Positions 4,141 to 37,778 of a stretch of 64,000 nt of DNA are shown here, one piece after another. The notes under the pieces were generated by a model that saw only the letters and a list, made by a program, of their open reading frames with translations, made no database searches and was not told the origin of the DNA. Source of the stretch: Camellia lanceoleosa (taxonomy: Eukaryota; Streptophyta; Magnoliopsida; Ericales; Theaceae); NCBI GenBank assembly GCA_025200525.1, contig CM045761.1, positions 139,440,223-139,504,222 on the forward strand, read 5' to 3'. Made by a program: the position numbers and the translations under genes. Each line of letters opens with the position of its first letter. Positions within the stretch are counted from its first letter, which is position 1.

Positions 4141-4602
4141 AAAAATCTTCTTCTTAAACTAATATATGCACAGACCGCTCAAGAGTCCAAAATACCGCTC
4201 GAGTGACAGATACAATAAGTGACACTGCTCGAGCGACCAAAACCCCCTCTTGAGCGCACAAAGACCCCCTTTCAGAAGTTCAGACCTTCAAACGACTGCT
4301 CGAGCGTAAGAAGGACTGCTCGAGTGAAGATATCAAATTTCCAGTAGTTTTTGTAGACTGTAAAAGATCGCTCGACCGCAAGAAAGACCGCTCGAGCGAA
4401 CAAGAAAACATCTGGGCAATAACTCATTAAAATTTAACTTCCTTGCCTGTTTCAAATGCAACCAAAACTCCCAATAGTCAAACTCAATAAGCAACAAGAT
4501 GAAAATGAGATGGACAACAATTAAGTACATGGATTCTCGGATTCAAAAGAAAGAAATGGGTCGGGTCTAAGCCAGAATCGTTATAATCTCCCCTTCTTGA
4601 GG
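4141..4602 (-). mobile_element. Copy 1 3' LTR terminal part plus polypurine tract
   Basis: 4400-4585 aligns by eye with the right end of the copy 3 LTR (37785-37972), sharing caaa...accaaa, gccaaactcaa-like and gggtc(g/t)(g/c)gtctaa stretches. It is followed by tctccccttcttgagg, which on the minus strand is a purine-rich tract, the expected plus-strand primer just before a 3' LTR. The next bases, aattttgtccccaaaatt, form a palindrome also present after the copy 2 tract. Confidence 0.7.
4176..4398. repeat. CGCTCGAGCG palindrome array A
   Basis: Eight 10-mers lie in four pairs: 4176/4196, 4226/4247, 4297/4317 and 4369/4389. Start-to-start spacing is 20, 21, 20 and 20 bp. Pair starts are 50, 71 and 72 bp apart. 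The copy at 4389 is perfect CGCTCGAGCG. Most others differ by C-to-T or G-to-A at CpG positions; 4176, 4247 and 4369 have additional changes. Confidence 0.9.
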
Positions 4603-4789
4603 AATTTTGTCCCCAAAATTTAAAATCAACTAACATTCATTGAAAGTAAAACAAATCACATTTCATCTAGACTTGTAACAAGGATACACCGACTTTTTCA
4701 ACACCAACTATTATAGTTCAATTTTCCAAAACATACACAATGTTTATATATATTACAATATAAATAAAATTATCAACACAAGTCTCAAA

Positions 4790-6222
4790 TATCAATGAGT
4801 AGGTCCGGATAATTCTCATGAACTTCTGCCTTCTGCTCCCAAGTCGCCTCCTTAACCCCATGATGTCGCTACAATATCTTAACCAATGGAATAGTCTTGC
4901 CTCGCAAGACTTAGTCCCGAGAGACTACAACCTGTATCCGTCTCTTCTCATATGAGACATCCCCATCTACCTATAATTCGGTCCAATCTAATGCATGTAA
5001 AGGATCAGACTCATACTTCCCGAGCATATAGATATGGAACACGTCATGAATCCCGGAAAGTTAGGGCGGCAATGCCAAATGATAAGCTACCTCCCCAATT
5101 CGCTCTAGAATCTCAAAAGGCCCAATAAATCTAGGGGACAACTTTCCGCTTTTTCCAAATCTCATTAAACCTTATCTCAATGATATTTTCAGAAATACAT
5201 GATTTCCTACCTCAAAAGATAAAGGTCTCCTCCTACGGTTGGCATAGCTGAAACCAACCTTTTACGAATAAGCAAGACATTCTTTGTCATTTCCTGGACT
5301 AATTCAAGACCTAACATAGGTGCGTCACCCACCTCAACCTAACACACTGGAGATCTACACAATCGGCCATACAAGGCCTCAAACGGCGCATACCAATACT
5401 CACCTGAAAGCTGTTATTATAGGCAAACTCTACTAAAGGTAAATGCCTCTCCCACGATCCCTTAAAATCCGAAACACAACCCCGAAGCATATCCTCTAAG
5501 ATCTGAATGGTTCACTCGGACTACCCGTTAATTTGAGGATGATAAGTAGTGCTAAATGTCAATCTAGTGCCCAAGACATTCTGTAGGCTCTGCCACAACT
5601 GAGCCGTGAAACAAGGATCTATATTCGAAACGATAGTCACAAGGACCCCATGAAGTCGAACTATGTCCCTAATATAAAGATCGGCAAGATAATCTACTAG
5701 GTCATTCGTTTGCATATGTATAAAGTGTGCTGATTTAGTTAATCGATCGACTATCACCCACATGGCATCAATACCCCGTTGAGTCCTTGGAAGACCCACA
5801 ACAAAATCCATCGTGACATGCTCCCATTTCCACTCGGCTATAGGTAAGGGTTGTAACAAACCTCCTGGTCGCTGGTGCTCGACCTTTACTTGTTGACAAG
5901 TAAGGCACCTTGAGATAAACAAAGCTACGTCTCTCTTCATCCCCCTCCACCAAAACTGGCAACTAAGGTCATGGTACATCTTCGTGCCTTCCGGGTGTAC
6001 TGCAAGAAGTGAATGATGGAACTTTCAGAGTATCTCATCTCTACAAGATTCTAGCACAAAAAGACAGTCCAAATACCTCACACTTGAGTCAGAATACATG
6101 TTGAATCCCTTCTCCACCTTTCCATTAGCTATCTTTCCTATGATGACCTCTACTTCGTGATCGCCCATCTGTGCTTCTATGACTCGACTCACTAATGTAG
6201 GTTGTGTAACTACAGTGTACAA
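4790..6222 (-). pseudogene. Gypsy copy 1 integrase and chromodomain, broken
   Basis: On the minus strand the region begins (from 6222) with the linker between RNase H and integrase. The H2C2 zinc-binding segment follows (CLTC near 5900), then the catalytic core with the first Asp in MDFVVGLPRT and a second in a degenerate IVSNIDPCFT where family members usually read SDRDPRFT. A stop falls just after HPQING at 5521. Integrase C-terminal sequence runs on in shifted frames. The tail ends in a chromodomain-like stretch, KEATWE near 4840, followed by YPDLL. Chromodomains are typical of the Tekay/Del and related chromoviruses, where they guide integration. The stops and the mutated motif show it is inactive. 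Confidence 0.85.
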
Positions 6223-6228
6223 AACAAC

Positions 6229-7718
6229 TGTAACGACTCAGAAATAATTCCCTATGAACAATTTAAAACATACAACATGCATCCACATAACCCAATTCAA
6301 TTTCAAAGTTTCTCTTTCTCATTGAACTATAGGTTTTGAATTACATAATTACATATTACATCTCACAGTTCAATAAGTTAGAGAAAACGACAAAATACAT
6401 TGTGCCACTTAATACAAAAGATACGAGGTTTCGTAATAGTAAAAATAAAGAAATTCAACTATTATATTACAACTTCCAAGTTCACAAAAATTTAAAATCC
6501 AAAAAAAATAGTCATCATCTTCCTCATTGACGAGGTTGGTGCTCTTCTTGTCCTGAAATGTTAGTAAATAGGAATGAGCAATTCACTAGTAGAGAATATA
6601 TTTAACCAAGTATATGTATATTTAATTTACACTATGCATGATCTATACTAATACCCATGACTTTCATTATTTCATATTTTATAACACAACACACACAATT
6701 CAACATTTAATCTCCCCATTTTTCCGTCCTTACACAAATGGCCAGTAGACACCTCAAACCTTCCACTTTTGTCATCCTCACACGATCCGGCAAGTGAACA
6801 CCTCCTAACATTCCCACATTTGTTGTCCTCACAAGGACCGGGCAAGTGGGCACCTCAACACATTCCAAAAATAATACATCTTAAACATATCACAAGGAAT
6901 CACAATGAGCCTCAAATTTTACTTATCAATTACCCTTTAAATCAAAATCCAAAAACACTCTTTAGGGTTTCACATCATATTTTAGAGCTTCACCTTCCCC
7001 TTAATTCAAGTCTCTTTATGCAATTTTCCATGTTTGATTTCCCAATCCTTTATCAATTTCACACAAACCACATCACAAAATCCGTGTGTATATATATATA
7101 TATATCTATGTCATCCATCTCCATAATCACCCACACCTTAAGATTCACACAAACTTAAACTAAGATATAAATATACAAGGGTAAAGATATTCCTACCTCA
7201 ATAGTTGTAAGCGAAGGATGAAGATCTACGTGATAAACTTCTGAAAAAGCACGATCCAATCGGTTCAAAACGTAGCGTTTGGCAAAAGCAACAAATTTAA
7301 TGACGGCCCAAAGATAGATTCTTGCTCTTGCTAGATGAAATCTAGGGTTTTTAAGCTAGGGTTTTAGGAAAAGGCTATTAGAGAGAGAGAAAGGGTGTGA
7401 GCTGAAAATGTGTTTGGTTCGTATTTAACTCTGTTGTCTCGACCAAACCACTCGAGCGAACTTTCCATTGCTTGAGCGAAGTGCCAAAATACAAAGAGAC
7501 CGCTCAAGCGAACTTTCCATCGCTCAAGCGGTAAACACAAGGTCTTAGAAGTTTGCAGAGCTACAGTAAAAATATTGAGAACTCGAATTGTACGCTCGGG
7601 TAACCGATCAATTGCTCGAGCGGTCTCGCCTACAAACATGCAAGATATTGGAAGTTGCAAATCTCCGCTTGAGCGACCAAATGACCACTCGAGTGATCAC
7701 CCAAAAACATTTGTTACA
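6229..7718 (-). mobile_element. Solo LTR inside copy 1 pol
   Basis: Begins TGTAACGACT and ends TTGTTACA. Comparison with the uninterrupted copy 3 sequence at 29300-29335 shows that host pol sequence (aaaacaac | ggctgactcaacg) is split here. ACAAC at 6224-6228 recurs at 7716-7720, a probable 5-bp target duplication, though it overlaps the terminal ACA so the end is uncertain by 3 bp. The content follows the other LTRs: two degenerate repeat units with caagtg(a/g)(a/g)cacctc (6790-6860), cctacctc near 7193, a GA stretch near 7380, then a palindrome array close to the right end. No internal element sequence is present, so it is a recombined solo LTR. Confidence 0.8.
7449..7695. repeat. CGCTCGAGCG palindrome array B
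   Basis: Eight 10-mers in four pairs: 7449/7469, 7501/7521, 7593/7613 and 7666/7686, each pair exactly 20 bp apart. Pair starts are 52, 92 and 73 bp apart, almost the same as in array C (52, 93, 73). The intervening 10 bp in the first two pairs is aactttccat. Nearly all changes from CGCTCGAGCG are CpG transitions. Confidence 0.92.
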
Positions 7719-8997
7719 ACGGCTGACTCAACGAACTCACTAAGATGCAAGTCAAACTCGCCAATAACACCTAACATCTCCCATTCCCAAATAGCAATAC
7801 TAGCTACACTGCTTATAATTTTCTTACTCAAGGCGTTAGCCACTACATTGGCCTATCTCGGATGATAGTGCAACTTAAAATCATAATTCTCTATAAACTC
7901 CATCCAACTTCTCTGTCTCAAATTCAAATCTTTCTGTGAGATCAGATATTTCAAACTCTTGTGATCGGAAAACACTTTGAATCTTTCGCCATATAAATAT
8001 TACCTCCAGATTTTTAAGGCAAAAATCACCACCGCTAGCTCTAAGTCGTGAGTAATTTAAATTTCTCTCATGTGTTTTCAACTGTTGCGAACTATATGCT
8101 ACCACTTTCCTTTTTTACATCAATACACCACCTAACCCTTCTCGAGACACATCACAATAAATTGAATAACCCAAACCCTTATCTGGAATAATCAATACTG
8201 GAGTAGTGGTGAGTCTAACCTTAAGCTCTTAAAACGACTTTTCACAAGTCTTACTTCACACAAACTTCACCCCCTTCCTTGGTAATCTAGTCAATGGTGA
8301 GGCCAACCTAGGGAAGTCTCTCACACAACGTCGTTAATACCCGGCTAAGCCCAAGAAACTCCAAATCTCAAATGCATTCTTAGGTTGTTTCAAATCTTGC
8401 ACTACCTCTATCTTAGAAGAGTCTACCATCACCCCTTCCTCGGATAGTACATGGCCTAAGAACTTAACTTCTTTTAAATAGTGGGCTCTAAGCAACTCAA
8501 GTATAACATGCAAGTGTTCTTCGAGTTCCTCCTCAGAGGGTGAGTAGATCAAGATGTTATCAACAAAGACAACCATGAAACGATCTAAGAACTCATGGAA
8601 GATTTGATTCATCAAATCCATAATCGAAGTCAGTGCATTGGTCAGCCTAAAAGGCATCACTAAGAACTCATAGTTGCCATACCGAGTATGAAATGCCGAT
8701 TTTTGAATATCCACCTCTTTTACCCTCAACTGGTGATAACCTGATTTGAAGTCAATCTTAGAAAAGCAACAAGACCCCTTTAGTTGGTCAAACAAATCAT
8801 CTATACGATGTCATGGGTACTTGTTCTTATGATTACCGGTTCAACTTCCGTGTCGATGCACAGTTGTAAAGTGCCATCATTCTTCTTAGCAAAGAGAGTC
8901 GGTGCTCCCCAAGGTAATGTACTAGAGCAAATGAAGCCATTATCTAACAACTCTTGGAGTTGAATCTTCAACTTATACAACTCGGCAGTTGCAAATC
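7719..8997 (-). pseudogene. Gypsy copy 1 RT and RNase H, broken
   Basis: Minus-strand frames at 7881-8105 carry an RNase H segment with [16 protein letters not shown]. 8334-8795 carries the RT palm, with FDQLKGS, the [10 protein letters not shown] segment and the catalytic box reading FVDNILIYS. Family members have FVDD or YVDD, so the second catalytic Asp is changed to Asn. 8801-8997 carries the upstream RT segment with LDNGFI and [10 protein letters not shown] before copy 2 interrupts it. Reverse transcriptase and RNase H copy element RNA into DNA in virus-like particles; this copy lacks an intact catalytic pair and contains frameshifts. Confidence 0.85.
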
Positions 8998-9674
8998 TGT
9001 AACGCCCTGACAAATGAGCTTGTCTGTTTCCTCTTTTCATCTGTGCATTACCAATACAAGATTGACAACAAAAACGAAACAAAATAGTAATGATAGAACA
9101 TTAACAACATTCCTTCCCTTTTTAACTATTTCCAAGCTTTATAACATTGTCTCATTACATTTACAAACAAAATAAAATAGTTCAACAAGTAAGGTATGAT
9201 ACAACAAAATCAGATAGCGTTCATCTTTTCCTCAAAGTTTGTTCCTTGTTACATCAAAATACATGTCTACACATAGTCACCCAAAAACTGCCCTTGGCAT
9301 ACGCATAATATGATTTCAAACATTAGCTTTCACATCCCAAAAGTTTTCTTCAACTCAAAACATTTACTCAGGAGGCACTTTATCGTCATTTCCTAAAATT
9401 TGTTAGCTTTGCGGTGAGCGAAAGCTCAGTAGATAATGCACTTAACAAGTTATAACATTAATTGAAAAACACATGATCATGCAAAGCAACATTTGGTAAA
9501 TTTTATTATGTATGTATATGGATGCCTTATGCATGAGCATAGAATGACAAAGTAAAGATTTTTCATAGGCAGTAAATATACTATGACATCCCTAATAAGA
9601 GCTGCAATTCAAAATACATACATAGTTATAGATTTTGTATACTGAAAATAGTCCTACGATTCTTAGAATCCGAA

Positions 9675-9840
9675 ACTACGAGGTGATGGGCACCCAAAAA
9701 CATTTTTCCATTCCACATTTGCTGACTCTAGAAACGGTGGGGACATGGACACCCAAAACCATGTTTTTCCACATTTGTCGACTCTAGAAACGGCGGGCTC
9801 GTGGACACCCAAAAACATTTTCCCACATTCGTCCGACGAT
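9675..9840. repeat. Tandem repeat of about 55-60 bp in LTR
   Basis: Three diverged units with the pattern actc(t/c)agaaac-gg(t/c)gg-c-tggacacccaaaa-cat-tttccacatt. Two or more units are present at the equivalent place in the right LTR (18090-18220). Confidence 0.75.
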
Positions 9841-10682
9841 ATCTTGTGAGCAGTGCAATTAGGCACATTAACTCCCCGCGTGGGTACCAAATACAATACA
9901 CAACTCAAATCAACCCGACTCACTACCCGAACTCATAGACTATTTACCCCCTTTCAACTTTCCACGGTTCATACCATTATTATATCATAAAAGAAATTTA
10001 ACAATGCATGTGATGCATGAATTTGTAAATTCTCGTTTTCCCCTAAAATGATTCCAATGCACAAAATTCACTATTTCACTTTTCAATAATAACCATTGTT
10101 CATTTAACAATCATCACCAACACAAGATATATGTAGAAAAACATTTCAAATCATACATTTCAACCTCAAAGTTAAGTAATTACCTTCAATTTCATGTTTT
10201 TTAAATCAATTAAGAAAAATCCCTTTTTATTGAACAATTTTCAAAACTGGGGTTTATATAGAATTTATGGATTTTCCCCCTTTTCATGAAATTGAAGCTA
10301 GTGTTCATCACAAACAATATTAATGATCAATATTAAACACCAATCGTTCCAAAACCTTGAAACATTTCTCACTCTTCTCCAATCCCTTCACTAACACAAA
10401 GTAATATATATATATCCACCTATATATATACATATATATGATGAATATCTAATGAAATTATCACATAAGAGTTTCAAATTAAAGGTATAACAAGTTAAAG
10501 ACACCCCTACCTCAAAAGTGGAAGCTAAAGACGAGAATCCACGACAAACTTCGACGAAAAAGTGAAACAATCGGTAGATATCTTGGACTCGACTTACTTT
10601 TCAATTTTTTTGGAGGATCTAAGGTGGATTTAAGGCAAAAATTGAAGAAATGAAGTGTTTAGGGTGTTAGGGTTTCGAAATG

Positions 10683-10702
10683 GGCGTGTGTATGTGTGTG
10701 TA

Positions 10703-10739
<37 letters not shown>

Positions 10740-10746
10740 AAGAGAG
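10683..10746. repeat. TG/GA microsatellite
   Basis: Alternating tgtg with tatg interruptions passes into gagagagag. It lies just before the palindrome array, as GA stretches do in the other LTRs. Confidence 0.9.
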
Positions 10747-10812
10747 AGCAAGTGGATAAACTGAGAAGGAAATGAGTTAGACGGATTTTTAAGTGAGCTG
10801 TCCTGAACAGAT

Positions 10813-11060
10813 CGCTCGAGCGAACTTTTCTTCACTCAAGTAACCATTGAAATTTCAAAGAGATAGCTCGAGCGATACTTCTATCACTCGAGCGGTAAAT
10901 GCGAGGTCCCAAAAGTTTTGCAGAGCTACAGTGAAAATATTGAGAGCATGAAATCTACACTTGAGTGACCACTTCACCGCTCAAGTAGTCTCACCTGCAA
11001 CATGGCAAACTACTGAGAACTAAGAATCTTTGCTCGACTGACAAAATGACCGCTCGAGTG
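10813..11060. repeat. CGCTCGAGCG palindrome array C
   Basis: Eight 10-mers in four pairs: 10813/10833, 10865/10885, 10958/10978 and 11031/11051, every pair exactly 20 bp apart. Pair starts are 52, 93 and 73 bp apart. The site at 10813 is perfect CGCTCGAGCG. The array ends 23 bp before the LTR terminus, so on the minus strand it is at the very start of U3. Confidence 0.93.
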
Positions 11061-11083
11061 GTCTGCCAAAAACAACTATCACA

Positions 11084-11098
11084 ACCTACCCTCCTTAC
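11084..11098 (-). other. Polypurine tract of copy 2
   Basis: acctaccctccttac directly follows the LTR end. On the minus strand it is purine-rich and lies immediately upstream of the 3' LTR, as needed to prime plus-strand DNA synthesis. Confidence 0.7.
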
Positions 11099-11423
11099 AG
11101 AATTTCGTCCCCGAAATTATCATAATCCCTGTCCAAACAACTCCAACAATTCTCAAGTAAGATGATTACTCTGCTTACAACATCTCTATTCATCATAACA
11201 TCAACACAATATATAGATTCAAATTCTCAATGATCAAAATTCACATGTCGCTTATAATGACCACACATAACATTAACACAAGACTTGTTTATGTTCCACC
11301 AACCACAATATAATGTCACTTATATAAAAGGTAGCAAAATCGTACATCATTAAACAAATCAAGGTATTTATCACGAACTTCAACTTCTCTCTCCCAAGTG
11401 GCTTATTCTACTCCATGATGGTG

Positions 11424-12163
11424 GAGGGACTCTATTTGAACCCAAAATATATTTCAGTACGCCCAATTTAAATTCATAAATTTTAATTCCTAATATATCG
11501 TAATATGAATTTACTAATAAGGACAACACATATTAAACCCCAAAATAAATATTTTTTTCTTCTCATAGTACACCCTAATCAGTTATTCCTATTCTTATTC
11601 AAATCTGTGTATTTTTTTCCCCAAGTGATCAAAGTTTTTTCTTCTTCTTTTTCTTCTTCTTCTTCTTCATCCTCCCTCCAAAACTCCAATCCACCCCACC
11701 AAAACTCACCATCATCATCAACATCATGGTTTTTTTATTATTTTGAAACCCTAAACCCTAGAAGAAAGTTTGAACAAAATTAAATAATGGATGAGAGTAA
11801 TAATCAAAATAGTTTTTTTGAAACAACTCATCAAAAAGGAGATAAGTATTCATATAAAGGGGTTTCACAATTTTTGTAGAACACAATCAATTATTTTCTA
11901 TATTGTTTTTTTACAAAAATTAAAGGGCCTAGTAATTAAATTAACATATTATTAGAGTTGTTCTTATTTTATCATTTAAATAGTACATTATTTGAGAATT
12001 ACTCTTTCTTGTTAGAGCTGAATGCTTATATGCTTATAAGTTTGGTTTTTACTTTTCCACGAGCATTCTTGTGGATAATTTATAATGTAAAAGTTTTATA
12101 ATGCTTATGTAAAAGTTTTTTTTTTTTCCTGTACTTATAACGTTTATGTACTTATAAGATTGG

Positions 12164-12213
<50 letters not shown>

Positions 12214-12422
12214 TTGAGAATTATTTTTTTGTATTGAAAAGATCTAAAATGATTTAGTTTTTTTAGTTTGTTTATTATTTATTATTTGGGTTTACCTTGA
12301 GGGTAATTTGAGAAAAATAATAGGGTGTAATGAGAGTAAAATAATATTTTAAATAATTAAATAAGGTGTACTTAGAAATTGTGAGTACTTAATGATTTTT
12401 TTGGATGTAAATAGAATCCCCC
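11424..12422. mobile_element. Non-autonomous Mutator-like element (MULE), 999 bp
   Basis: A perfect 9-bp duplication ATGATGGTG flanks it (11415-11423 and 12423-12431). The termini are related inverted repeats: GAGGGACTCTATTT on the left and, as reverse complement, GGGGGATTCTATTT on the right. It splits the copy 2 chromodomain codons: HHHG lies on the right side and the ATWE-containing continuation on the left. Subterminal sequences match the Pack-MULE-like element at 40345-41562 (acattaaacc, acgccctaat/acaccctaat, and gggtaattt toward the right), so both belong to one family. No transposase is visible. It contains a CT microsatellite at 12164-12207. Confidence 0.9.
12164..12207. repeat. CT microsatellite
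   Basis: Nearly pure (CT)n of about 40 bp inside the MULE. Confidence 0.95.
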
Positions 12423-13854
12423 ATGATGGTGTCGTAGTACTTTGACTAGAGGTACAGTTTTACCTCTCAAGACTTGCTCTCGAGTATCTAGAATCTTCAT
12501 TGGTCTCTCCTCGTAGGACACACTTTTATTTATTCAAGATCCGTCAAGTCTAAGAAATGAGATAGGTCGGGCTCATACTTGTGAAGCATTGAGATATGAA
12601 ACACGTCATGTATCCCGAATAATTATGGGGGCAAAGCAAAGCGATAAGCAACTTCCCCCACTCGTTCAATGATATCAAAGGGACCGATGAACCTAGGTGA
12701 TAGCTTTCCGCTCTAGCCAAATCTCATCAAACCTTTTCTAGGTGATATCTTCAAAAACACATGGTCACCTACTTCAAAAGACAATGGATGTCTTCTCTTA
12801 TCTGCATAGCTTAGCGCCGTGATTAACCTCTTTCGAATGATAGCTACTTTTTTCGTGGTTTTACAAACCAAATCTGGTCCAAGCATGGGTGAATCTCCTA
12901 CCTCAGCCCAACACACCGATGACTTGCAAGGACACCCATATAGGGCTTCAAAAGGCACCATCCCAATACTAGCCTGAAAGCTATTACTGTAGGCAAACTC
13001 GGCTAGCAACAAATATTTCTCCCATGACCCTTTGAAATCCAATACACACGCTCTCAACATGTCTTCCAAAACTTGAATTGTGCACTTAGACTAATCATCA
13101 GTTTGAGGGTGGTAAGTAGTACTAAAAGTCAACTAAGTCCCCATAACGGTTTGTAAGCTCTGCCATAACTGCACGGTGAAGCAAGGGTCTCTATTTGAGA
13201 CAATGCTCACCAGAACCCCATGAAGCCAAACAATCTCCTTAACATAGAGTTCTGCTAGGTAATCCACTGTGTCGCCCATACTCATTGCCAGAAAATGTGT
13301 CGACTTAGTTAGTTGGTCTACTATGACCCAAACGGCATCATTACCTATATGTGTTCTAGGAAGACACAAACAAAATCCATTGTGATGTGTTCCCACTTTC
13401 ATTTGGCTACCAGTAAGGGTTAGAACAACCCGGCTGGCCTTTGATGCTCTACTTTGACTTGTTGACAAGTTAGGGATTTAGACACAAATAAGGCTACATC
13501 CTTCTTCATGCCCTTCCACTAGAATTGTTGGCTTAAATCATGATACATTTTCGTACCTCCTGGATGGATCGCAAGATAGGAGTGATGAAACTCTTGAAGT
13601 ACGTTATCTCTACAAGATTTTGGCACAAAAAGGCGATCTACATAATGGATACTCGAGTCAGAGTGTACCCTCAGCCCTTTCTTTTCTTTCCCTTGCAAGA
13701 TTTTCTTTCTAAGTGCTTCTACCTCCGAATCATTTTGTTGTGCTTCTAAAACTCGTGTGACTAGGGTTGGCTATGCTAAAATTGAAAACAAGGTAGCTTG
13801 ACTTGATAACTCACCAAGGTGCACATCAAACTCACTTAGATCACCCAATATCTT

Positions 13855-15160: not shown

Positions 15161-15369
15161 AACTTGGTGAAATCCTCAGGAAAAACATCTGGATACTCAC
15201 AAACCACCTTAGGAAATATCCCCCGAACTGTACTACCTTCATCATTGGCAATAGTCACAAGAACAAAACTAAGTTTGCCTTGACTTCGCGGGTCATACAA
15301 TGGTGGAAACCCTCAATCGACTTTATCCCCTAGAAAATAAAAACAATCTCCACCAGAGGTACATATTGT

Positions 15370-15680: not shown

Positions 15681-15739
15681 TGCCTTTTATCACTGATGGT
15701 CCAGATGATTGCTCAAAAGTAGTGACTGCATAAACTTGC

Positions 15740-17420: not shown

Positions 17421-17432
17421 GCTCTGATACCA
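17421..17432 (-). other. Primer-binding site, initiator tRNA-Met
   Basis: The plus strand gctctgatacca is TGGTATCAGAGC on the minus strand, the standard plant iMet primer-binding sequence. It lies 3 bases inside the 5' LTR end (17436). Confidence 0.95.
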
Positions 17433-17435
17433 ATT

Positions 17436-18582
17436 TGTAACACCCTGACAAATGAGCCTCCTAGTTCCGCCTTTTCATCCGAGCATTACCAATACATGAT
17501 TGGCAACAAAAACAAAACAAAATAGTAATGCTATAACATTAACAGCATTCCTTCCCTTTTGAACTATTTCCAAGCTTTACAACATTGTCTCATTACGTTT
17601 ACAAACAAAATAAAATAGTTCAACAAGTAAGGAATGATACAACAAAATTAGCTACCGTTCATCTTTTCCTCAAAATTTGTTCCTTGTTACATCAAAATAC
17701 ATGTCTACACATAGTCACCCAAAAACTGCGCTTGGCATATGCATAATATGATTTCAAACATTAGCTTTCACATCTCAAAAGTTTTCTTCAACTCAAAACA
17801 TTTACTTATGAGGCACTTCATCGTCATTTCCTAAAATTGGTTAGCTTTGGGGTGAGCGAAAACTCATTAGGTAACGCATTTAACAAGTTATAACATTAAT
17901 TGAAAAACACATGATCATGTAATGCAACATTTTGTAAATTCTATCATGTATGTGTATGAATGCCTTGTGCATGAGTATGGAATGACAAAGTTAAGGTTTT
18001 TCATGGGCAGTAAATATACTATGACATCCCTAGTAAAAGCCACAATTCAAAATTCATACATAGTTGTAGATTTTGTATGCTGAAAATAATCCCACATTTG
18101 CTGACTCCAGAAACAACGGTGTGATAGGCACCCAAAAACATTTTTTCCTTTTACATTTGTCGACTCCAAAAACGGCGGGCTTGTGGACACCTAAAAATAT
18201 TTTTCCACATTCGTCCGGTGATATGCGCAGACAACGCAATTGGATACCTTGACTTCCCACGTGGGTACCAAATACAATACACAACTCAAATCAACCCAAT
18301 TCACTACCCGAACTCATAGACTATTTATCCCCTTTCAACTTTCTACGGTTCATACCATTATTGTATCATAAAAGAAATTTAGCAATGCATGTGATGCATG
18401 GATTTGTAAATGATTCCAATGCACACAAAATTCACTATTTCACTTTTCAATAATAACCAATGTTCATTTAACAATCATCACTAACCCAAGGTGTTTGTAG
18501 AAAAACGTTTCAAATCATACATTTCAACCTCAAAGTTAAGCAATTACCTTCAATTTCATGTTTTGTAAATCAATTACTTGTT
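17436..18582 (-). mobile_element. Copy 2 5' LTR, truncated
   Basis: Matches 8998-10210 of the left LTR up to tgtaaatcaatta near 18582. After that the sequences are unrelated. The missing half contains the GA stretch and palindrome array, so the element-start side of this LTR (promoter side) is lost. Confidence 0.9.
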
Positions 18583-21639: not shown

Positions 21640-23338
21640 CTCTGGTAAAGGAATGATTTTAACCATGGGTGTCAAAAATTTCTTTATAAGGCATACAATG
21701 TGTGCTAAACATGCCAATGCAGTGCAAAACTTTTGTATCCATGGCATAACTGTCCTTGAAAAGTGGAAGAGCTAATAATAAACATGATAGAATGAATAAA
21801 ATTCTGAGAAATTCACATCAGAAATTGAGAAAATTCATGCTGCCTTTAGAATTGCTCTTACTGAATATTGGCCATCAGTAATTGCTTTCAAGACTCCGTT
21901 CAATTTGGGCTAGACAAACATCCATACCCGACTGGAATCCAAAGTCAGCTAGATTTTAAATCCACACATCATTACTTTTCCATCAAATGACTCAGTCAGC
22001 TATTGCAGCATCAATAACCAACGGTAATTGGAAGTTTTCTCTATCAAAATAAAGGGAAAGTAAGAAAAATAAATAAAGGAAAGAAAAAGGAAAGTTCTAG
22101 GTGAGTGTCTAGTAGTAGGTGACATCCTGAGAAGGAAAATAGTGAGCAGCTCAAAGAAAAGTGGCTATCTTGTGAAGGAAATAAGTAACTTTAGAAGAAC
22201 TAAAGCAGATTGCGAAGACATATACCTGTTTGTGAAAACCAATTATGGTTAATTTCCGTGGCAGTGACAGTGAAGTTTTGCTCTAGAAATGGGAACAAGT
22301 CAGATGTCTGCTAGCCTGTGGTCTTTTCTATCTTTTGCAAACCAGCTACAGACACCGGAGAAAATGATAACATCCTCCATGGGTGCGGATGCTGTATTTT
22401 TATTCGGTGAAATGACGTCTCTAATTTCTATATCTTCTTCTTTGTCATCTTTTGTAGTTTCTTGAATCTAAAAGACTCATTATTAATTGTTGTACGGTAT
22501 TGCAGAAAGTAATTAAAATTATAAGTCATTTCCTAAGTAAGAAAAGTAAGAGATTCTTAAATGTGTAGTCACAGAACCTCTGGATTCACAAGCATTCTAA
22601 GCCTATAAAGAGGAGTCAAAGTAAAGGATTAGGAAATTAAACAAGAGAGGGCAGCGAAGATAGTCTTGAAAATTAGTGAGAAAACCTAGCCCACTCCCAT
22701 CTTCCATTTATGCACCATCAGAACACCATCTTAAAACCTTCTCTACCATATTAGTCATTTACCGTTTTAAAAACCTCTATGTATCCTTCAAGAGAGTGCT
22801 CATCAAGAAGGCAAACCGAAGCAAATCCAAACATAACGGTTCAAAAAACAATAGCCAAGAAGAATGTTTTAAAGGTTTTTTCAAGGCAGACATCTATACT
22901 ATTCCATCTACCTAATTCTAGTGTTTGCATTGCATTGCGTGACATCTTCGAGTTTGATTGGTTTTGGCTGCATGCTCTCTACTATCATCTTTGGCTTGCT
23001 GGAAACATCGTTCTGTCATGAGTGCATATGATTGCCTTTTAAACGGAAGTTGTATGCTTTGGTTAAGAGTAGTTTAGAATGCAGGCTTAACATATAGTTT
23101 TATTTAGGCATGTTTTAGACACTTTTTTGATTTACTGGATTTTCTGCTATGGATATATGTTTTCGCTTATTAGAGTTGTTCTGTGTACATTTTTGTTTCA
23201 TATTTTCAATTCTTGTTTTCATTTACTTTGAAAATTTGGTAACAAAAGCTTATTTGGTTCGTATATTTTGGTTTTTATGAAGGTAGAATTGAATAGAGAG
23301 AAGCGTTTGCCAAGTAGCTAGAAAGAAGCAAGCAAGCC
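21640..23338 (+). other. Region upstream of the WAK-like gene
   Basis: No gene recognised. Short open frames at 22676-23021 have no recognisable product. The last 60 bases before the ATG at 23339 are purine-rich, as in a leader, with a weak TATA-like tatatttt near 23260. The promoter probably lies here, but no motif is decisive. Confidence 0.4.
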
Positions 23339-24798
23339 ATGGCTTCCTCACAAGGAATGCAATTGCAGCTACATCCCATCATCACCATGCTAGTACTAGT
23401 ACAAGTAGTAGTGGTGGTGGTATTGTCATTATCAGCAGCAACAATTGCAGCACCACCAACAGAGCAAGATTTGAAAAATCTTGGCTGCTTGAACCATTGC
23501 GGGAATGTAAAAATTTCATACCCATTTGGTGTGAAAGAGAAATGTTATATTAATGAACATTTTTTGATTAATTGCACAGACTCCAAACCATATTTACGGA
23601 AAAGTGACATCCCTGTTACAAATATTTCGCTTGAGGAGGGAGAGTTAGGCATTATGAATCCTGTAACTTGTGCTTGTTATAGCGGGTCTGTGTCAAATTG
23701 TTATCAACCACCAGAGCTTGGGTTAATTGCATTCTCCATATCTAATACCAAAAACAAGTTCACTGCTATTGGTTGTGACACCCGTGCAACTATCAAAGTA
23801 TCTGGAGAGAATTATTTCGTTGCAACTGGGTGTGAGTCCCAATGTAGCACGATCAATTACATTCCTGATGGACCTTGCTCTGGAATTGGCTGCTGCCAGA
23901 CCTCCATCCCTAAAGGAGTCGGCTATATGAACATTCTTCTGCAGAGCTACAGTAATCATGAAAACGTATCAAAATTCAATCCTTGCAGCTATGCTTTTGT
24001 TGTTGAAGAAGGTGCTTTTAGTTTCTCCAAAAGCTACCTGAGAAATTTTACAGAAGAAATGATGCCGATAGTGCTTGATTGGGCGGTAGGGAATAACAAG
24101 ACGTGCAGAGACTCTCAAAGAAATCTGGAAAGTTATGAATGTGGAGAGAATAGTGATTGTTATGATTCAAAAAATGGACGTGGGTATTTCTGCAAGTGCA
24201 GGATTGGTTACAAAGGGAACCCGTACCTCTTAGATGGTTGCCAAGGTTCGTATTCAATTAGTTTCATCATATTGGATTCATTTGCTTTTGTTATTAGATA
24301 TTGCTTATGATGTGATGCCTAATTTTCATATAGTCTTCTTCTCTGTTTTTTTATTTTTTTATTTTTATAATTGTTTTGCAGACATAAAGGAGTGTGAAGA
24401 TCCAAAGCTCAACATGTGTGAACACAAAAATAAATGTGTTGACATGCCACCTGGGAATTATACTTGTTCTTGCCCCAAAGGATACCACGGTGATGGAAGA
24501 ACAGATGGAACAGGTTGCATTGCTAATCAATTTCTAGCGATTCAGATTGCGGTTGGTAAGTGTATATACGTCTGTGCCAAAATATCCTCTTCACAAATTT
24601 TCCAACTTAACTTGAGGAAAAAGTTTAGGTGAAGAGAAGGTTTCAAACACAGAATGCATAGAATGTGACACATTTGTGCATTATGTGTTTGAAACCTTTT
24701 CTGCACATAGCACACTTGTAACTTGTTACTCTACTCTAAAAATTCGATCTATTTTTCAAACACAATAGTGTGACAGTATATTAGAATATCTAAAGCAA

Positions 24799-25390: not shown

Positions 25391-26894
25391 TAAATAAAGG
25401 GGCTTGGAAGTTAGCGCAAGAAATGTGGGGGGGAAAAAAAAGGCTCATTCAACTTGATATGTATTTCTACACTGATTCACAAGTCAGTTCTCAAGATAAA
25501 ATTATCAAATTGAATGTCTTATTGAGCTAAAAATTTGATCTTTAACATATAGATGCATTCCAATTCATCATACAATTGAGATGTTTCTATAACTAATTGT
25601 TGCTTTCCTCGAGTATAAAATTCTTTCTATGCTTAATTTTGAATCAATATGTTGGCAAGATGTTTATATTAGTTGTTACTTATGACTTATTTGAAATGCA
25701 GGTTTTGCCATTGGTGCTTTAGCTGTTTTGGTGAGTAGCTCCTGGTTGTACTGGATTCTCAAGAAAAGAAAGCTCATCGTGCTTAAAGAAAAGTTCTTTA
25801 GGCAGAATGGTGGATTAATGTTGAAACAACAACTCTCTAGACTAGAGAGATCAACTGAGGATTTGATCAAAATATTTGATTCAGAAGAGCTCAAGCGGGC
25901 TACCAATAACTATGATGAGAGTAGAATTATTGGCCGAGGAGGTTTTGGAACAGTTTACAAGGGAATTCTACCCGAGAACAAGATAGTGGCTATTAAGAAA
26001 TCCCAAATGGTGGATGAAAATCAAATAGAGCAATTCATCAACGAGGTGGTCGTGCTTTCACAGATCAATCATAGGAATGTGGTCAAACTCTTAGGTTGTT
26101 GTTTGGAAACTCAAGTCCCTTTACTTGTTTATGAATTCATCACCAATGGCACTCTCTTTGAGCATATAAATAACCAAAGTAAGGCATCTAATATATCATG
26201 GGAAAATCGTTTGCAAATAGCTGCTGAAACTGCTGGAGTGTTGTCATATTTGCACTCTGCAGCATCAATTCCTATCATCCATAGAGATGTTAAGTCTACA
26301 AATATACTCTTAGACGATAATTACATAGCAAAAGTGTCAGACTTTGGAGCATCAAGGTTTGTTCCCCTAGGCCAAAATCAATTAGCCACAGTGGTACAAG
26401 GAACTCTTGGATACTTAGATCTTGAATACATGTTCACAAGCCAGTTGACTGAGAAAAGTGATGTTTACAGCTTCGGAGTAGTCCTTGTAGAGTTAATCAC
26501 TGGAAAGAAGGCGTTGTCATTTGACAGGCCAGAAGAGGAGAGATGCCTGGCTATGTATTTTATTTCTTATATGAACAATGATTGCTTGAACCAAATTATT
26601 GATGAACACATGGTAATTGAAGGGAACATTGAGGAGCTCAAAGAAGTTGCTAATCTTGCAAAGAGATGCTTGAGAGTAAAAGGGGAGGAAAGGCCTTATA
26701 TGAAGGAAGTAGCGATGGAATTGGAGGGGTTGATCAGGAAAAAGACATCTAGAAATGATTTGAATTCTTCAGAGATTGAGTACTTGCTTGATAAGGCATC
26801 AACTGGATATGTAGTTGGAGGTTATAGAAGCAACACAACAACAGCTAGGGTTGATAGCATGGCGAAAGATATGTTATTGCATGGTGGGAGGTGA
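23339..26894 (+). CDS. Wall-associated receptor kinase-like protein, three exons
   Basis: Exons 23339-24245, 24382-24555 and 25702-26894 (GT-AG introns of 136 and 1146 bp, both phase 1) give 757 residues. The signal peptide is about residues 1-37. A cysteine-rich GUB_WAK-type pectin-binding region starts at GCLNHCG (49-55) with SYPFG at 60-64. An EGF-like repeat ends with exon 1 (about 266-302). A calcium-type EGF module (DIKEC at 303) fills exon 2. A membrane segment (about 353-380) crosses intron 2. The Ser/Thr kinase has the glycine loop [11 protein letters not shown] (438-448), Lys459, HRD (Asp556, RD type) and DFG (Asp574). WAK proteins sit in the plasma membrane, bind pectin or oligogalacturonides and signal in growth and defence. 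One oddity is LDLEY, where WAKs usually have LDPEY (residue 601). All splice sites fit and no stop interrupts the frame, so it is probably functional. Confidence 0.95.
24799..24838. repeat. CT microsatellite in WAK-like intron 2
   Basis: (CT)n with one gt interruption. Confidence 0.95.
25333..25388. repeat. AAT microsatellite in WAK-like intron 2
   Basis: About 18 units of aat, likely length-polymorphic. Confidence 0.95.
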
Positions 26895-28567: not shown

Positions 28568-28599
28568 TCAAAAATAAAGAACTAAACAAAACACTAACC

Positions 28600-30640: not shown

Positions 30641-30649
30641 GTGCTATAG

Positions 30650-31230
30650 AAATCGGTGTCGTGCCGGCACTAAGTCAATAGAGAACTCAATCTCACGATG
30701 AGGTGGTAAACTAATGAGATCCTTAGAAAAAACATCCGGATATTCACAAATTACCCTTGGCAAATCAACTCGAACTTCATCTCACTACCCAAGAACTTTT
30801 CAAGAAGACAACTAAGCTCACTCCGACCTTGCAGATCACATACTGGTGATGAAGCTGTATCGGTTCTGTCCCCAATGAAATAAAAACAATCACTGCTCAA
30901 GGTACATACAATAACCCTCTGATGGTAACAATATATGATAGCTCGATACGATGACAACCAGTCCATACCTAATATAACATCAAAACTCAACATGTCAATC
31001 AACACAAATGCAAAAGAAAATCGGGGACCGACAACCTCTATCTCACAACCCTAACACCCCTGTTCCAAAACGATCTCACTACCAATAGGTGACTTTACAC
31101 TGAGTGGAGATGCTAACCGAACCAATTCTAATCCCAATGCTGATGTAAATGCAAACAAAATAAAATAATGGGATACACCCGTATCAATCAACACATTGCA
31201 GTAGAATTGCATAACAAGAAAGTACCCTTC
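30650..31230 (-). pseudogene. Gypsy copy 3 protease
   Basis: The frame 30751-31005 has FDVILGMDWLSSYRAII and DCFYFIG, characteristic of the protease-to-RT region of this lineage. The active-site triad lies near 31190 (plus strand tgatac...atcaatcaacac), giving an IDTGVSH-like stretch in an interrupted frame. Confidence 0.7.
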
Positions 31231-32884: not shown

Positions 32885-33483
32885 TGTCACGACCTGAACC
32901 CGCCCCCGTGGACTAAGGACATGACCGGCCAGTAATCATGAGATTACCTACGGCCTCAAACCAAACCAAACGTATTTTAACAGAGTTCATGGGGGACAAA
33001 CGGAAGTAATTGAAACTTTGTCCATAGAGCCATGCTTATATGCACATCATTACATACATATGTTAATAACTCACATCAGAAAATGCAATAACATAAAATT
33101 CTGTACAAACAGGATCACTCAAATCTAAGTCAGCTAAACAAAACTACATACAAACACATTCAAAGACTTCGCCAACCTGACAAAATATAAATACATAACA
33201 AAAGGGGCGAAGACGTGTCTCGTGCGTGAGACGCAAGGGCTGACTCCTCAAAACCTTCGTTGTTCCAAACTGACTTCTCTGAGGCTGGGTCTGGACCTCT
33301 CTTGGCTCACCTACAAACACATGAATGAGCGTGAGCGAAAGCCCAGTGAATAATATCAAATAAAGAATACACATTGGAACAATATACATCAAACGGCCTT
33401 GGGCCCAATTTGCATTTCTAACTAATACATACATACATAGACATATGTAAGTTAAGTAACTGAGGTTCCAAACATATCATACG

Positions 33484-33712
33484 GCCTCGGGCCCAATTCA
33501 TTCATGTCCATCGGCCTTTGGCCCAATCGTCTATGTCAATCGGCCTTCGGCCCACATTTATATCAAACGGCCTCCGGCCCACATTTTATCAATCGGCCTT
33601 CGGCCCATAGTTTATCAAACGGCCTCCAGCCCACATTTTATCAAATGGCCTCCGGCCCACATTTTATCAAACGGCCCACATTTTATCAAACGGCCTTCGG
33701 CCCATATACACT
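33484..33712. repeat. Tandem repeat with GGCCTTCGGCC palindromes
   Basis: About nine units of 26-30 bp with consensus atcaaacGGCCTCCGGCCCa followed by catttt. Each unit carries a near-perfect inverted repeat GGCC-NNN-GGCC. One unit (33669-33680) lost half its palindrome. Confidence 0.92.
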
Positions 33713-33962
33713 TTCGTGTCAAACTGGTCTTTCGACCTTTCAAACTTTCATTTCAAACTGGCATTTAAGCCTTTCAAACTTGTTATATCAAACCGGTATT
33801 TAAGCCTTTCAAACTGGCATTTAAGCCTTTCAAACTTGTTATATCAAACCGGCATTTAAGCCTTTCAAACTGGCATTTAAGCCTTTCGAACTTTCATTTC
33901 AAACTGGCTCATAGGCCTTTCATATCAAACTGGCTCATAGGCCTTTTATATCAAACTGTGTC
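33713..33962. repeat. Tandem repeat with GGCATTTAAGCC units
   Basis: About nine units of 24-30 bp with core caaactGGCATTTAAGCCtttc, changing at the right end to GGCTCATAGGCC. It follows the previous array without a break and also has a GGC...GCC inverted frame. Confidence 0.9.
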
Positions 33963-34273
33963 CACCATTCAAGTTAATGAACTTTATAAAACTTACATAG
34001 AAGTAGCAATTGGACAATAACATATGTCAGATATTATTCACAGTGATCGGCTTGTGGATTTGCCCTGGAGTTTGACCCTACATATCACATAACACATATG
34101 GGTCACAATTAATTCAATCCGTTCTTTAGTTCACATATTCTTCTTTAGGCTTCATTCTTATCTCTTTAATTCAATTACAATGCTCAATGCATGCCTAAGA
34201 GTGCTTGGAAGTGAAAGGGAACGAAAAACAGAACACATAATGCATAAACAAAATTTCAGCAAAACAGGGTCCC

Positions 34274-34497
34274 CGCTCGAGCGTGGACTTCCCCACTCGA
34301 GCGAACCCTTAAGGCCTGCTAAAGTGCTAGTTGCGTCAAAAATACGCTCAAGCGTGAAATAGGGAGCTCGAGCGGAAGTCCTGTCTAAAAGGTTCCCCGC
34401 TCGAGTGTGAAATTACCCACTCGAGCGGACATCCAAGTCTGCAAAAATGCTGGGAGCACAAAAATCACGCTCGAGCGGCAGGTTCCCCGCTCGAGCG
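34274..34497. repeat. CGCTCGAGCG palindrome array D
   Basis: Eight 10-mers in four pairs: 34274/34294, 34345/34365, 34398/34418 and 34468/34488, each exactly 20 bp apart. Pair starts are 71, 53 and 70 bp apart. 34274, 34468 and 34488 are perfect CGCTCGAGCG; the others mostly differ by one CpG transition. The intervening 10 bases often contain ttcccc, unlike arrays A-C. Confidence 0.95.
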
Positions 34498-35973
34498 GAC
34501 ATAAAATTTCTGGGTTTTCCAGATTGAGTTCTTGGGTTCCCTTCAACATTCAAACCATCATTTCTTGCCTTTAATGGCTCCAATTTCATATATACTTGTA
34601 CTAACATGGTATAAACACCAAAACACATCTTCATGGAGCCCAATTTCATAAATCAAATACATGCATGGCTCAATTTAGTTCAAACTCAATTCTATCATAC
34701 ACATTCATGCATTCAAAACTCCTATCGTTAATTATTCAAACATGCATGCTAATCTTGACTTCATTTCTATTCCAAATAATGCAAATGGTGTTCATTCTCA
34801 TGGAGCTCAACAAAAACATGTTTGCATGTATGATTCAACACTCACATTTCCATATTCAACTTAATACATGCTTGATTATGCAAAATCATGGTGATCCTAC
34901 ACATGCATGTGCACATTAGCTTCAAATTCATCAATTGTAGCACAACTCTTGTTCTTGATCACCAATTAATCTTTAATTCACAAAATTACAAGTTCAATCT
35001 CATGAATTTACTCACCTAGGAGTTTAATCTTCCAAACCCCAGTCGATTCTTGGACTTAATCTTCAAGATTCCCAAGCCTTAAGCCAAAACCACACAACTC
35101 TCCCCCTTCTTTCTCTAAGGCCGACCCTCTCTCTCTCTCTATTCTTGAGTTCAAAATCAGCCAAAGTGTTATAAAGGGGAAGAATTGAAGTGTAATGGCC
35201 CTTATGTATAAGCCCACTAATCAAGTTTAATAATAATAAATAATATGGCACTAATTCATTAATTAAATCAATTTAATCTGGCCTGAATCAGTTTTTCAAT
35301 TAAATTTCACCGTAGGCTCTAAAAATTATGCCAATTACAATGGCGTAACCAATTTCAGGTTCTGTGGCCAATAAGGCCTCCAATTTAATTTCCGAAGCGG
35401 TAAAATCAAACAGATATTCCTACGGTGAACAGATAGAAATTCAAAACCACATATTTTCACACAATGGCATACAAAACCATAACAAACACATAATCATATA
35501 CAAATTAAGGACCAATTAGCATAATACGGAACAAGGGTATCACAACCACCATGTCCACGTCTACGTCTACATCCTGACATCCTAATGAATATAACAAATG
35601 AGATTAGAACATTTACAAATGTGCCGAAGCTAACTCACTCGCGTCCTAAAGCGATAGACAACAATTAATTCACTCCACATAAGCACATAATCACATAAAC
35701 ACATATGAATTTTCTTTCTAGATAATTATCGTCCCGCGACATTATCAGAGTTCGAATTAGAAATAGCAATGATCAAATGCTCTTCTAATAGGACTTCTAG
35801 AAACCCGTAGACCCAATCGATATCTTGAAAATTAAATCCCATACCCATATAGCCACATAAGCTTATTATCACATAGCATACCATACCATACATGCAAATA
35901 TCTTTATCAAGAAAGACAAACCCATTGTGCTAATAATGACTTCCCACGTATTGAAAGTACTCAAACCCGGTAC

Positions 35974-35985
35974 ACTCTAATACCC
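35974..35985 (-). other. Degenerate primer-binding site of copy 3
   Basis: actctaatacccaag stands where gctctgataccaatt stands in copy 2, directly before the LTR start at 35990. It is an iMet site with several substitutions. Confidence 0.6.
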
Positions 35986-37344
35986 AAGTTGTAACGCCCT
36001 GAAATAATAGGCAATAGACCATCCATTATATACATTAAATAACTGAACTGACATGAGTAATTATCTTTCATTAATTTTAGTTGAGTTTACAAAAGAGTGA
36101 CATATGCAGATATACATTCATAAGCATATTCCTGAATCTATAGCATACGTTACAACAAGGGATAAGATATGAAAACAAAATAGATAATAAATGCCCTAAA
36201 GGCTTACAACTTTCCAAGACAGAGTTTGGTTACAGCAAAAGTGGACTTAAGCCCAATACAGTTAAAATCCTTGGCTTGTACAAAAACAAATATAGTAAAT
36301 ACACAAAAGAAACTTTTGCTCCAAGTCCTCCCAAGTTATTGCCTTGGCGGAAGCATATCATCAGTACTAGAAATGTTTTTCCCACATAGGGTGAGTCAAA
36401 ACCTAGTAAAACTAAACCAACACGGTGTATAAATCTCAACAAAGCTATAAGGTGGATGCATATGCAATTCACGTACCGAAAACATTTTATATCTCTTTCA
36501 AAATCATGCAATGCTGGGATAATATCATGATTCATAAAACACTCTTCTTTCAATGGAAACACAGGGCAGTTAGTCATATCTCAAGGAATCTCTAAAGTAA
36601 GGATCACATTTCACGGAAATTTCGTCCGCGGGAAACCGTAAACCAGCACCCATATAAACGTAGGCTATACAAGCACTACTATTGCCATTTTACAGATATT
36701 TCATCCGCATGATTAGCATCCAGGTATACGCGCGGTTTTCGAGACTTTCACCCTGGATACACAAGCCAACGTATTTGATGTAACAACCACTCCTTTCTAG
36801 ATTCACCCATTTCTTTAAAACAATATACAATTACAATGTATAATTATAAAATAATAGCCAATGCAAATGAATAAGAAATAGTTTCAATTCCCCTAATTCT
36901 CATGCAATTTCTACAACAATCATAACTATCCTTCACCGATAGCCCAAAACCGATATTTCTAAACAGATAATTAATATTCCATAAAAATAAACTTTCCAAA
37001 TTTCAAGAGGTGGATGATGATACATATCTAACTCTACCATCATCATCAATACCAATCCAATTTCATAATTTCAACCTCAATTTCATTATTTATACAAGAT
37101 CAATATTTGAGGCATTTATGATAAAATTCCTTTTCTTTCCAAAATCAATCCTAAGTATTAAAATCAACCATTTCTTCCCAACTCAATATTATTTCCAACA
37201 TCAAAATCATTTCCAAGAATCCATGTGAAAAACTCCTCTTTTGTTTTTTCCCTAAAACCCTAGATTTGTTCTAAATCTTTCAAAATCTCAATATTGATTA
37301 GAAATAACAAATAGCCAAGTTAAAACTCATAAAAAGAGTAGGAC

Positions 37345-37346
<2 letters not shown>

Positions 37347-37381
<35 letters not shown>
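37347..37381. repeat. GA microsatellite
   Basis: (GA)n of about 35 bp, just before array E. Confidence 0.95.
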
Positions 37382-37383
<2 letters not shown>

Positions 37384-37488
37384 TGAGTCTTAGAGAGAGG
37401 GTCTCAACTTAAGGTTTTGAAATATTTAGAGAGAGAGATGAAAAAGTGATATAAAAAATGACTTTTACGGACTGATAAACGCGTAGAC

Positions 37489-37778
37489 CGCTCGAGCGCA
37501 AGAAGTGATGTTTGAGCGTATAGACACAAAAGATGTGACCACTCAAGCGCAAGAAGTCTTTGTTCAAGCGTGAAATATAAACTCCTAGTAGTTTTACAGA
37601 CAGAAAGCCAACTCTCGAGTGCAATAAGGGCCGCTCGAGCCAAGATCGCTCAAGTGTAAGAAGTTTCGCTCAAGCGAAGAATACCACTTCCTAGTAGTTT
37701 TACAAACTTGTAAAAGTATTAAGAGTTCACAAAGATCGCTTGAGCGCCAGCTTGAACGCAAGAAGTGACGCTTGAGCG
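37489..37778. repeat. CGCTCGAGCG palindrome array E
   Basis: Eleven sites. Pairs 37489/37509, 37540/37561, 37612/37632, 37647/37667 and 37749/37769 are spaced 20, 21, 20, 20 and 20 bp, with one extra site at 37737. The first three pair starts are 51 and 72 bp apart, as in array A (50, 71). The site at 37489 is perfect. The spacer often reads caagaag, shared with array A. Confidence 0.92.

Follow-up and report, generated by a model that had tools for sequence, protein, structure and literature searches.

The window analysed here is a stretch of 64,000 nt inside the genome of Camellia lanceoleosa (Theaceae, Ericales; 2,999,249,670 bases), at positions 139,440,223-139,504,222 of the sequence C4, and it carries five arrays of a palindromic box, CGCTCGAGCG, with the core GCTCGAGC. 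The boxes stand in pairs, and the arrays lie in long terminal repeats (LTRs) of Ty3/gypsy retrotransposons. A preliminary description of the window had listed five arrays in five different LTRs, with 21 pairs, 19 of them spaced by 20 bp and two by 21 bp. A script recovered the arrays at the same coordinates and gave the same counts; the pair-to-pair steps reported there were likewise correct on recheck. All five arrays are on the minus strand. Array A (4176..4398) comprises the pairs 4176/4196, 4226/4247, 4297/4317, and 4369/4389 with spacings of 20, 21, 20, and 20 bp. In array B (7449..7695; pairs 7449/7469, 7501/7521, 7593/7613, 7666/7686), array C (10813..11060; 10813/10833, 10865/10885, 10958/10978, 11031/11051; several members are decayed), and array D (34274..34497; 34274/34294, 34345/34365, 34398/34418, 34468/34488), all spacings are 20 bp. 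Array E (37489..37778) consists of five pairs, 37489/37509, 37540/37561, 37612/37632, 37647/37667, and 37749/37769, which are spaced by 20, 21, 20, 20, and 20 bp, and it has one additional site at 37737.

Exact copies of CGCTCGAGCG are found at just six sites of the window, and only the pair 34468/34488 has two exact members; some pair members carry three or four mismatches (four in the case of site 10833). The concentration of the box in the arrays is nevertheless evident: the 27 sites that deviate from it at one position or none all lie within the 1,232 bp occupied by the arrays, compared with 0.4 in a base-shuffled window. If two mismatches are allowed, 35 of 39 sites are within arrays, and the expectation for the whole window is 5.75. 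All 31 matches of the pattern YRCTYRAGYR are inside arrays.

The assignment to five different LTRs was upheld. Array A belongs to the U3 region of the 3' LTR of element X (minus strand), which starts at about 4585 after a polypurine tract and of which only the high edge was located. Array B is part of a solo LTR (6229..7718, minus strand) nested in element X, where it separates RNase H from integrase within pol. Array C lies in the 3' LTR of element Y (8998..11083, minus strand), whose upper edge is approximate, as it was deduced from the homology of B and C and from the polypurine tract; this LTR matches positions 17432-18576, which adjoin a primer-binding site at 17421. Array D is located in a solo LTR inserted in element Z (32885..35600, minus strand; upper edge approximate), which has the end TGTCACGACC at 32885 and belongs to the second of the two LTR classes described below. 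It is 68% identical over 2.5 kb to the LTR at the genomic place L018 and partially matches other LTRs of that class. Array E resides in the 5' LTR of element Z (35990..37970, minus strand; upper edge approximate), whose end TGTAACGCCC adjoins a degenerate primer-binding site and whose homology with the LTR of element X extends up to 37970. There is homology between arrays B and C (69-71%) and a weak one between A and E (61-70% in pieces). The five arrays are thus relatives, which represent neither five independent origins nor one recent tandem expansion.

Wherever an element could be resolved, in the window or elsewhere in the genome, the array is located in an LTR. The hosts are Ty3/gypsy LTR retrotransposons according to domain content and structure. 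Several array-bearing elements gave matches to the Pfam models RVT_1, RT_RNaseH, Integrase_H2C2, RVP_2, and Retrotrans_gag, which we take to be of the Ty3 type, and they possess twin LTRs and, in some cases, a primer-binding site or a polypurine tract. Three matches to Chromo (E-values 7.6e-5, 0.0016, and 0.0071) are all under the curated cut-off; SH3_Tf2-1 is above its cut-off. In the array-bearing element elem1, seven internal open reading frames (ORFs) of at least 120 aa resemble gag-pol. Among the five ORFs scanned whole against Pfam, four contain gag, protease with a zinc knuckle, reverse transcriptase, and integrase, and the fifth is without a match; a sixth, scanned in part, gave a sub-threshold chromodomain, and the RNase H ORF was judged by eye. 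In this set no extra DNA-binding gene was seen.

Spacing and composition of the pair unit across the genome

The preliminary description had left it to the rest of the genome whether a spacing of 20-21 bp is preferred. There, 20 bp is strongly preferred, across diverse spacers. Pairs of CTCGAG spaced by exactly 20 bp occur 169,618 times, in comparison to 246 occurrences of the reversed pattern; for a spacing of 19 bp, the corresponding numbers are 2,402 and 862, and for all spacings of 15-25 bp they are 197,934 and 4,735. Among the first 100 places listed with a spacing of 15-25 bp, 85 have 20 bp and one has 21 bp. A sample of 18 stretches of 10 kb, chosen blind to content, gave a similar picture. 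With at most one mismatch, it contains 58 sites versus one for the reversed consensus, and 19 of the 37 next-site distances up to 60 bp are exactly 20, none being 19 or 21. With at most two mismatches, 84 sites stand against 41 reversed ones, 26 of 50 distances are 20, and one is 19. One or more pairs are present in eight of the 18 stretches, and the sample yielded seven arrays. Six stretches of a viral collection also match the paired pattern; all of them have a G+C content of 61-75% and 10-58 CTCGAG each, and were read as chance.

In order to characterize the spacer, 89 non-redundant pairs were oriented by purine content, and position 5 turned out to be an A in 82 of them; note that the orienting rule favours purines across the first six spacer positions and not at position 5 alone. 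For the first 100 listed places with 20-bp pairs, which are the first on the sequence C1 and in part twin LTRs, an A at position 5 or a T at position 6 was found in 93 cases, where 76 are expected if the two sides are independent. Of these 100 oriented spacers, 89 are distinct, with a mean pairwise identity of 4.1 out of 10 positions. The near-fixed A beside the pair centre implies that the spacer is diverse but not free. The earlier statement that spacer bases vary while the spacing is kept therefore needs qualification: the 20 bp are held genome-wide, but the spacer has a nearly fixed A and an orientation linked to the LTR class. The pair unit looks like an asymmetric 30-bp composite, consisting of CGCTCGAGCG, a 10-bp spacer of roughly nnRRAAnnCn, and a second CGCTCGAGCG.

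The linkers between pair units cluster near 31, 51, and 72 bp. Among 58 non-redundant linkers, 19 have a length of 30-33 bp, 15 of 49-53 bp, and six of 69-74 bp, the remaining 18 being scattered. Pair spacing is stricter than linker length, as 39 of 47 pairs in the range of 15-25 bp are spaced by 20 bp, whereas 9 of 26 linkers in the range of 26-36 bp have 31 bp (Fisher p = 7e-5). An analysis of periodicity in the 58 linkers, computed without a shuffle control, gave resultants of 0.48, 0.38, and 0.43 for periods of 9.8, 10.4, and 8.8 bp, respectively. Many of the longer linkers additionally contain a second recurrent motif, roughly CCAGTACTTTTGCAG (e.g. L009:4489-4503, L018:850-866, and 34439-34454 of the window, minus strand), which may be the site of a second factor; according to a rough pattern count, it is mostly oriented differently in the two LTR classes.

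Open frames that cross two of the arrays were used as protein queries and gave 29 matches: two proteins of Camellia sinensis and 27 ENA records whose contigs measure about 0.5-1.3 kb. The translation signature of a 20-bp pair, with other spacers, is seen 82 times in 28 of these 29 matches; signatures of 19 bp (two), 21 bp (three), and 22-25 bp (13 in total) are also present. The C. sinensis protein P0123 has a 20-bp signature, P0124 has none. As the matches were picked by their similarity to a 20-bp array, this result confirms the presence of the arrays in tea more than it tests the spacing.

Position in the LTR and turnover of the sites

In four of the five LTRs of the window, a TATA-like box follows the last site of the array at a short distance on the minus strand. 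These are TATATT at 4161..4166 (+9 bp from array A), TTAAAT at 7423..7428 (+20 bp from B), TTAAAA at 10787..10792 (+20 bp from C), and TTTATC at 37474..37479 (+9 bp from E); array D, which lies in the middle of its LTR, has no adjacent TATA-like match within 25 bp. A genome-wide tally was based on 29 rows, or 15 after the removal of relatives (the rows L005, L006, and L007 are one place listed three times). Array C is outside this tally, because at the mismatch limit used it has two sites more than 160 bp apart; its TATA-like box is the one noted above. A TATA-like match 5-25 bp past one end of the array was found in 15 of the 29 rows and in 8 of the 15 non-redundant ones, where about three are expected; no array has a match at both ends. 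Eight of the 29 rows and 5 of the 15 non-redundant ones (0.2 expected) have TATAW at +8 or +9, the frequency in random stretches being 1.4% per array. The exact position at +9 is the stronger evidence, because the TATA expression is broad and matches 20% of arrays by chance. About half of the arrays stand immediately upstream of a TATA-like box, a placement that fits a regulatory site.

A second class of LTRs is formed by elem1, L013, L018, L005, one L015 array, L022, and array D of the window, none of which has a TATA-like match within 25 bp. Their arrays are situated in the middle of the LTR, as measured for elem1 (1,079-1,280 of 2,364 bp), L013 (1,033-1,349 of 1,775 bp), and D; for the remaining ones this location was assumed from flank similarity. 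The two classes also differ in the orientation of the spacer relative to the sense of transcription. In the 14 arrays of the first class, 44 spacers point one way, 5 the opposite way (one each in C, L016, and L023, two in B), and 7 are ambiguous; in the seven arrays of the second class, none has the first-class orientation, 17 are opposite, and 10 are ambiguous. For A, C, E, elem1, elem2, L012, and L013, features of the element (pol, primer-binding site, or polypurine tract) gave the sense. For the other arrays it was deduced from flank similarity, from LTR ends, or from the side on which the TATA-like box lies, so that the division into classes depends in part on this box. An inspection by eye of a second-class LTR (L009:3900-5260; positions of about 585-1945 in the LTR) revealed a donor-like AG|GTAAGG upstream and an acceptor-like TATGTAG|GT downstream of the array, which might accordingly lie within a leader intron.

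A comparison of twin LTRs from five elements showed that 54 of 471 site columns (11.5%) differ, whereas the value for the rest is 443 of 8,083 (5.5%). Site columns differ more because half of the site bases belong to CpG; for non-CpG columns, the values are 6.8% in sites and 4.6% for the rest. Of the 165 site changes in the 89 pairs, 120 are CpG transitions. CpG differences between twin LTRs amount to 39 of 250 (15.6%) within recognised sites versus 85 of 324 (26.2%) elsewhere, which may be due to real protection or to a bias, as badly decayed sites go unrecognised. The observed/expected ratio of CpG, computed without a formal island call, is 1.0-1.5 in 10 arrays versus 0.27-0.69 in their flanks. 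In spite of this decay, arrays are kept between elements whose pol sequences are 67-80% identical. Fast decay combined with persistence across diverged lineages suggests that active copies need the sites; for this small set of elements, persistence points to selection acting in those that are active.

Proposed function and alternative explanations

We consider it fairly probable that the arrays are promoter-proximal enhancers of a large Camellia Ty3/gypsy group, putatively bound by paired dimers. Each palindrome would be occupied by a dimer of a sequence-specific protein, for which a transcription factor of the host or a domesticated protein of the transposase type is the most likely candidate. 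At a distance of two helical turns, the two dimers of a pair would touch one another as well as the A-rich centre, and several units about three, five, or seven turns apart would load many copies of the factor beside the TATA box; the loaded factor would then drive transcription from the LTR. The grammar of the sites, its scale across the genome, and the placement of the arrays are observed, whereas binding, dimerisation, activation, and the host origin of the factor are inferred. Since no extra DNA-binding gene was seen in elem1, a putative host factor is somewhat likelier than an element-encoded one. More tentatively, and with less than even confidence, a single putative factor might read the asymmetric 30-bp composite, so that several long-separated Camellia Ty3/gypsy lineages, with about 170,000 intact pairs, would depend on it. 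In that case the unit would be used in two arrangements, forward-type beside the promoter and flipped inside the LTR.

Several observations weigh against this reading. As non-CpG columns of twin LTRs are conserved no better in the sites than outside them, there is no indication of selection on individual copies once they have inserted, and common descent of the LTR families accounts for part of the shared spacing. Arrays of the second class, with no TATA-like match within 25 bp and an inverted spacer orientation, are left unexplained by a simple activator upstream of the promoter; L014, which is first class by similarity, has no TATA-like match within 25 bp either. The preliminary description had noted that pair-to-pair steps are close to full helical turns; with a resultant of 0.48 for 9.8 bp but also 0.43 for 8.8 bp, the helical-phase signal in the linkers is weak and at most suggestive. 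Spacer and linker data are from one genome. Finally, the sites could instead serve the escape from silencing or recombination.

Silencing is the subject of a more specific alternative, which we regard as rather unlikely: the arrays may be recognised by a protein, either encoded by the element or captured, which removes methylation or prevents it, in analogy to VANC of the VANDAL elements. VANDALs are Mutator-like DNA transposons. According to Hosaka et al. 2017 (PMC5735166), the VANC target motifs in Arabidopsis are YAGTATTAY or AGTTGTCC/AGTTGTAC, and, like the Camellia arrays, they are short motifs in non-coding regions of many related mobile elements that differ between families. The CpG-rich composition of the arrays, the repetition of a short motif in non-coding parts, the loss of sites mainly through CpG transitions, and the smaller difference of site CpGs between twin LTRs (biased by site recognition) would all fit such a role. 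However, VANDAL elements carry their own VANC gene (PMC5735166), whereas the ORFs of elem1 look like gag-pol and no VANC-like gene was seen in the scan of this element, the other families having been examined only in part. Moreover, VANC motifs are described in tandem repeats, and the words "spacing" and "palindrom" are absent from the main text of that article as far as accessible; the tight placement of the TATA-like box in Camellia points to the promoter itself. An unlikely role is that of an RNA structure: in LTR transcripts, two identical palindromes 20 nt apart would pair as a hairpin (stem of 10 bp, loop of 10 nt), and the array would act as an RNA element or as a source of small RNAs, a role proposed for maize Sirevirus palindromes. 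All of 10 arrays are predicted to fold more stably than 60 dinucleotide shuffles (z from -2.4 to -7.8), and palindrome regions of Sireviruses are reported as small-RNA hotspots (PMC5311732 and PMC10760457). Palindromes, however, fold regardless of purpose, and wherever a TATA-like box follows, the likely start lies downstream of the array. Loops of 9 or 11 nt would be expected to serve equally well, yet pairs spaced by 19 bp are about 70 times rarer, and compensatory changes in the 89 pairs are not in excess (5 versus 6.8 in shuffles, with 145 one-sided changes). RNA or cruciform pairing was rejected as the cause of the pairs, as it predicts such an excess and leaves the sharp drop at 19 bp unexplained.

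It is improbable that descent alone explains the arrays, i.e. that a pair unit was duplicated in tandem in an ancestral LTR and its spacing of 20 bp has been inherited without current selection. The homologies of B with C and of A with E are what it would predict, and similar linkers recur among families; yet the spacers have diverged to the low mutual identity given above while their length was kept, and the linkers of the same arrays are more variable in length. Furthermore, sites decay faster than the rest after insertion, and would be the first to go without selection. That the arrays are translated repeats of an ORF is highly improbable. Open frames of 127-168 aa cross some arrays and have been deposited as predicted proteins, but both strands are open in L012 and the pair is found in differing frames. 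This candidate was set aside because 20 bp shift the frame between the two sites of a pair.

If a single factor indeed reads the 30-bp composite, it would act as the gate for the spread of these elements through a 3-Gb genome. Ty3/gypsy elements make up a large share of big plant genomes and, to our knowledge, the activating switch is known for few of them. A strict and abundant 30-bp target offers a handle for finding the factor and for asking why camellia genomes were filled with these elements, and about 10^5 naturally varying copies are a data set for learning the spacing rules of cooperative binding.

Among known systems, Tnt1 and Tto1 are copia elements with tandem activator boxes, whose sequences differ from the Camellia motif. 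In plant copia LTRs, cis-acting boxes are described as arrays of two or three repeats that are often sites of host stress-related factors (PMC2829016). The Camellia arrays resemble them as regulatory-type boxes repeated in an LTR; the copia boxes differ in having few copies and in belonging to another superfamily. The nearest known counterpart seems to be the palindromic repeated motif (RM) in the LTRs of Sireviruses (Ty1/copia), whose boxes contain CpG. Bousios et al. 2010 (PMC2829016) give 3-14 RM boxes per 3' LTR (Table 3), the majority of which lie in the upper LTR half. The boxes make up CpG islands a short way before a conserved TATA box and are retained as the LTRs diverge. Their core is CGG-CCG in 12 of 13 motifs, Tnd-1 being without it. 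These authors suggest a regulatory role and call promoter-reporter tests required. The first-class arrays of Camellia are similar, with many CpG-bearing palindromic boxes just upstream of a TATA-like box. In contrast, all resolved Camellia hosts are Ty3/gypsy and not Ty1/copia, the core is GCTCGAGC instead of CGG-CCG, and there is a second, mid-LTR class with inverted spacer orientation and no TATA-like match. The RM description, in the accessible text, gives no pair spacing, and a strict pair rule is what the Camellia arrays appear to add. These likenesses suggest that the palindromic LTR boxes of Sireviruses are matched in the other superfamily by boxes with a tighter grammar. Searches of open-licence papers gave no report of a paired array of this kind. 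Among the matches listed for the 10-mer and CTCGAG-motif phrases, none was on LTRs by its title, nor was any of those for the 10-mer on plant retrotransposons, and the combination of CTCGAG, LTR, palindrome, and retrotransposon gave only work on retroviral integration. The accessible main text of a paper on Retand elements contains no CTCGAG, TATA, or spacing, and palindromes only in a reference; CTCGAG is absent from the main text of a tea-plant paper.

Further features of the window

A gypsy-like element with gag, protease, reverse transcriptase, and integrase occupies positions 52279-58354 (minus strand), and no CGCTCGAGCG array was found in its span. Pieces of a wall-associated receptor kinase gene, with galacturonan-binding and kinase domains, are located at 23318-24310 and 25695-26894; the kinase part is up to 94% identical to proteins of Camellia sinensis. 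An open frame at 48474-49094 has a weak match to a plant mobile domain, which is below the cut-off. Repeated sequences are also present. Direct copies at 41935-42296 and 46920-47283 are 86% identical over 364 bp, and an inverted repeat with arms of 72 nt (43742-43891), which is like a small hairpin element, has a related copy 3 kb away (40641-40709). Two related stretches of about 1 kb, at 11431-12424 and 40352-41564, are alike at both ends (73-76%); one of them sits between the integrase and the 3' LTR of element Y.

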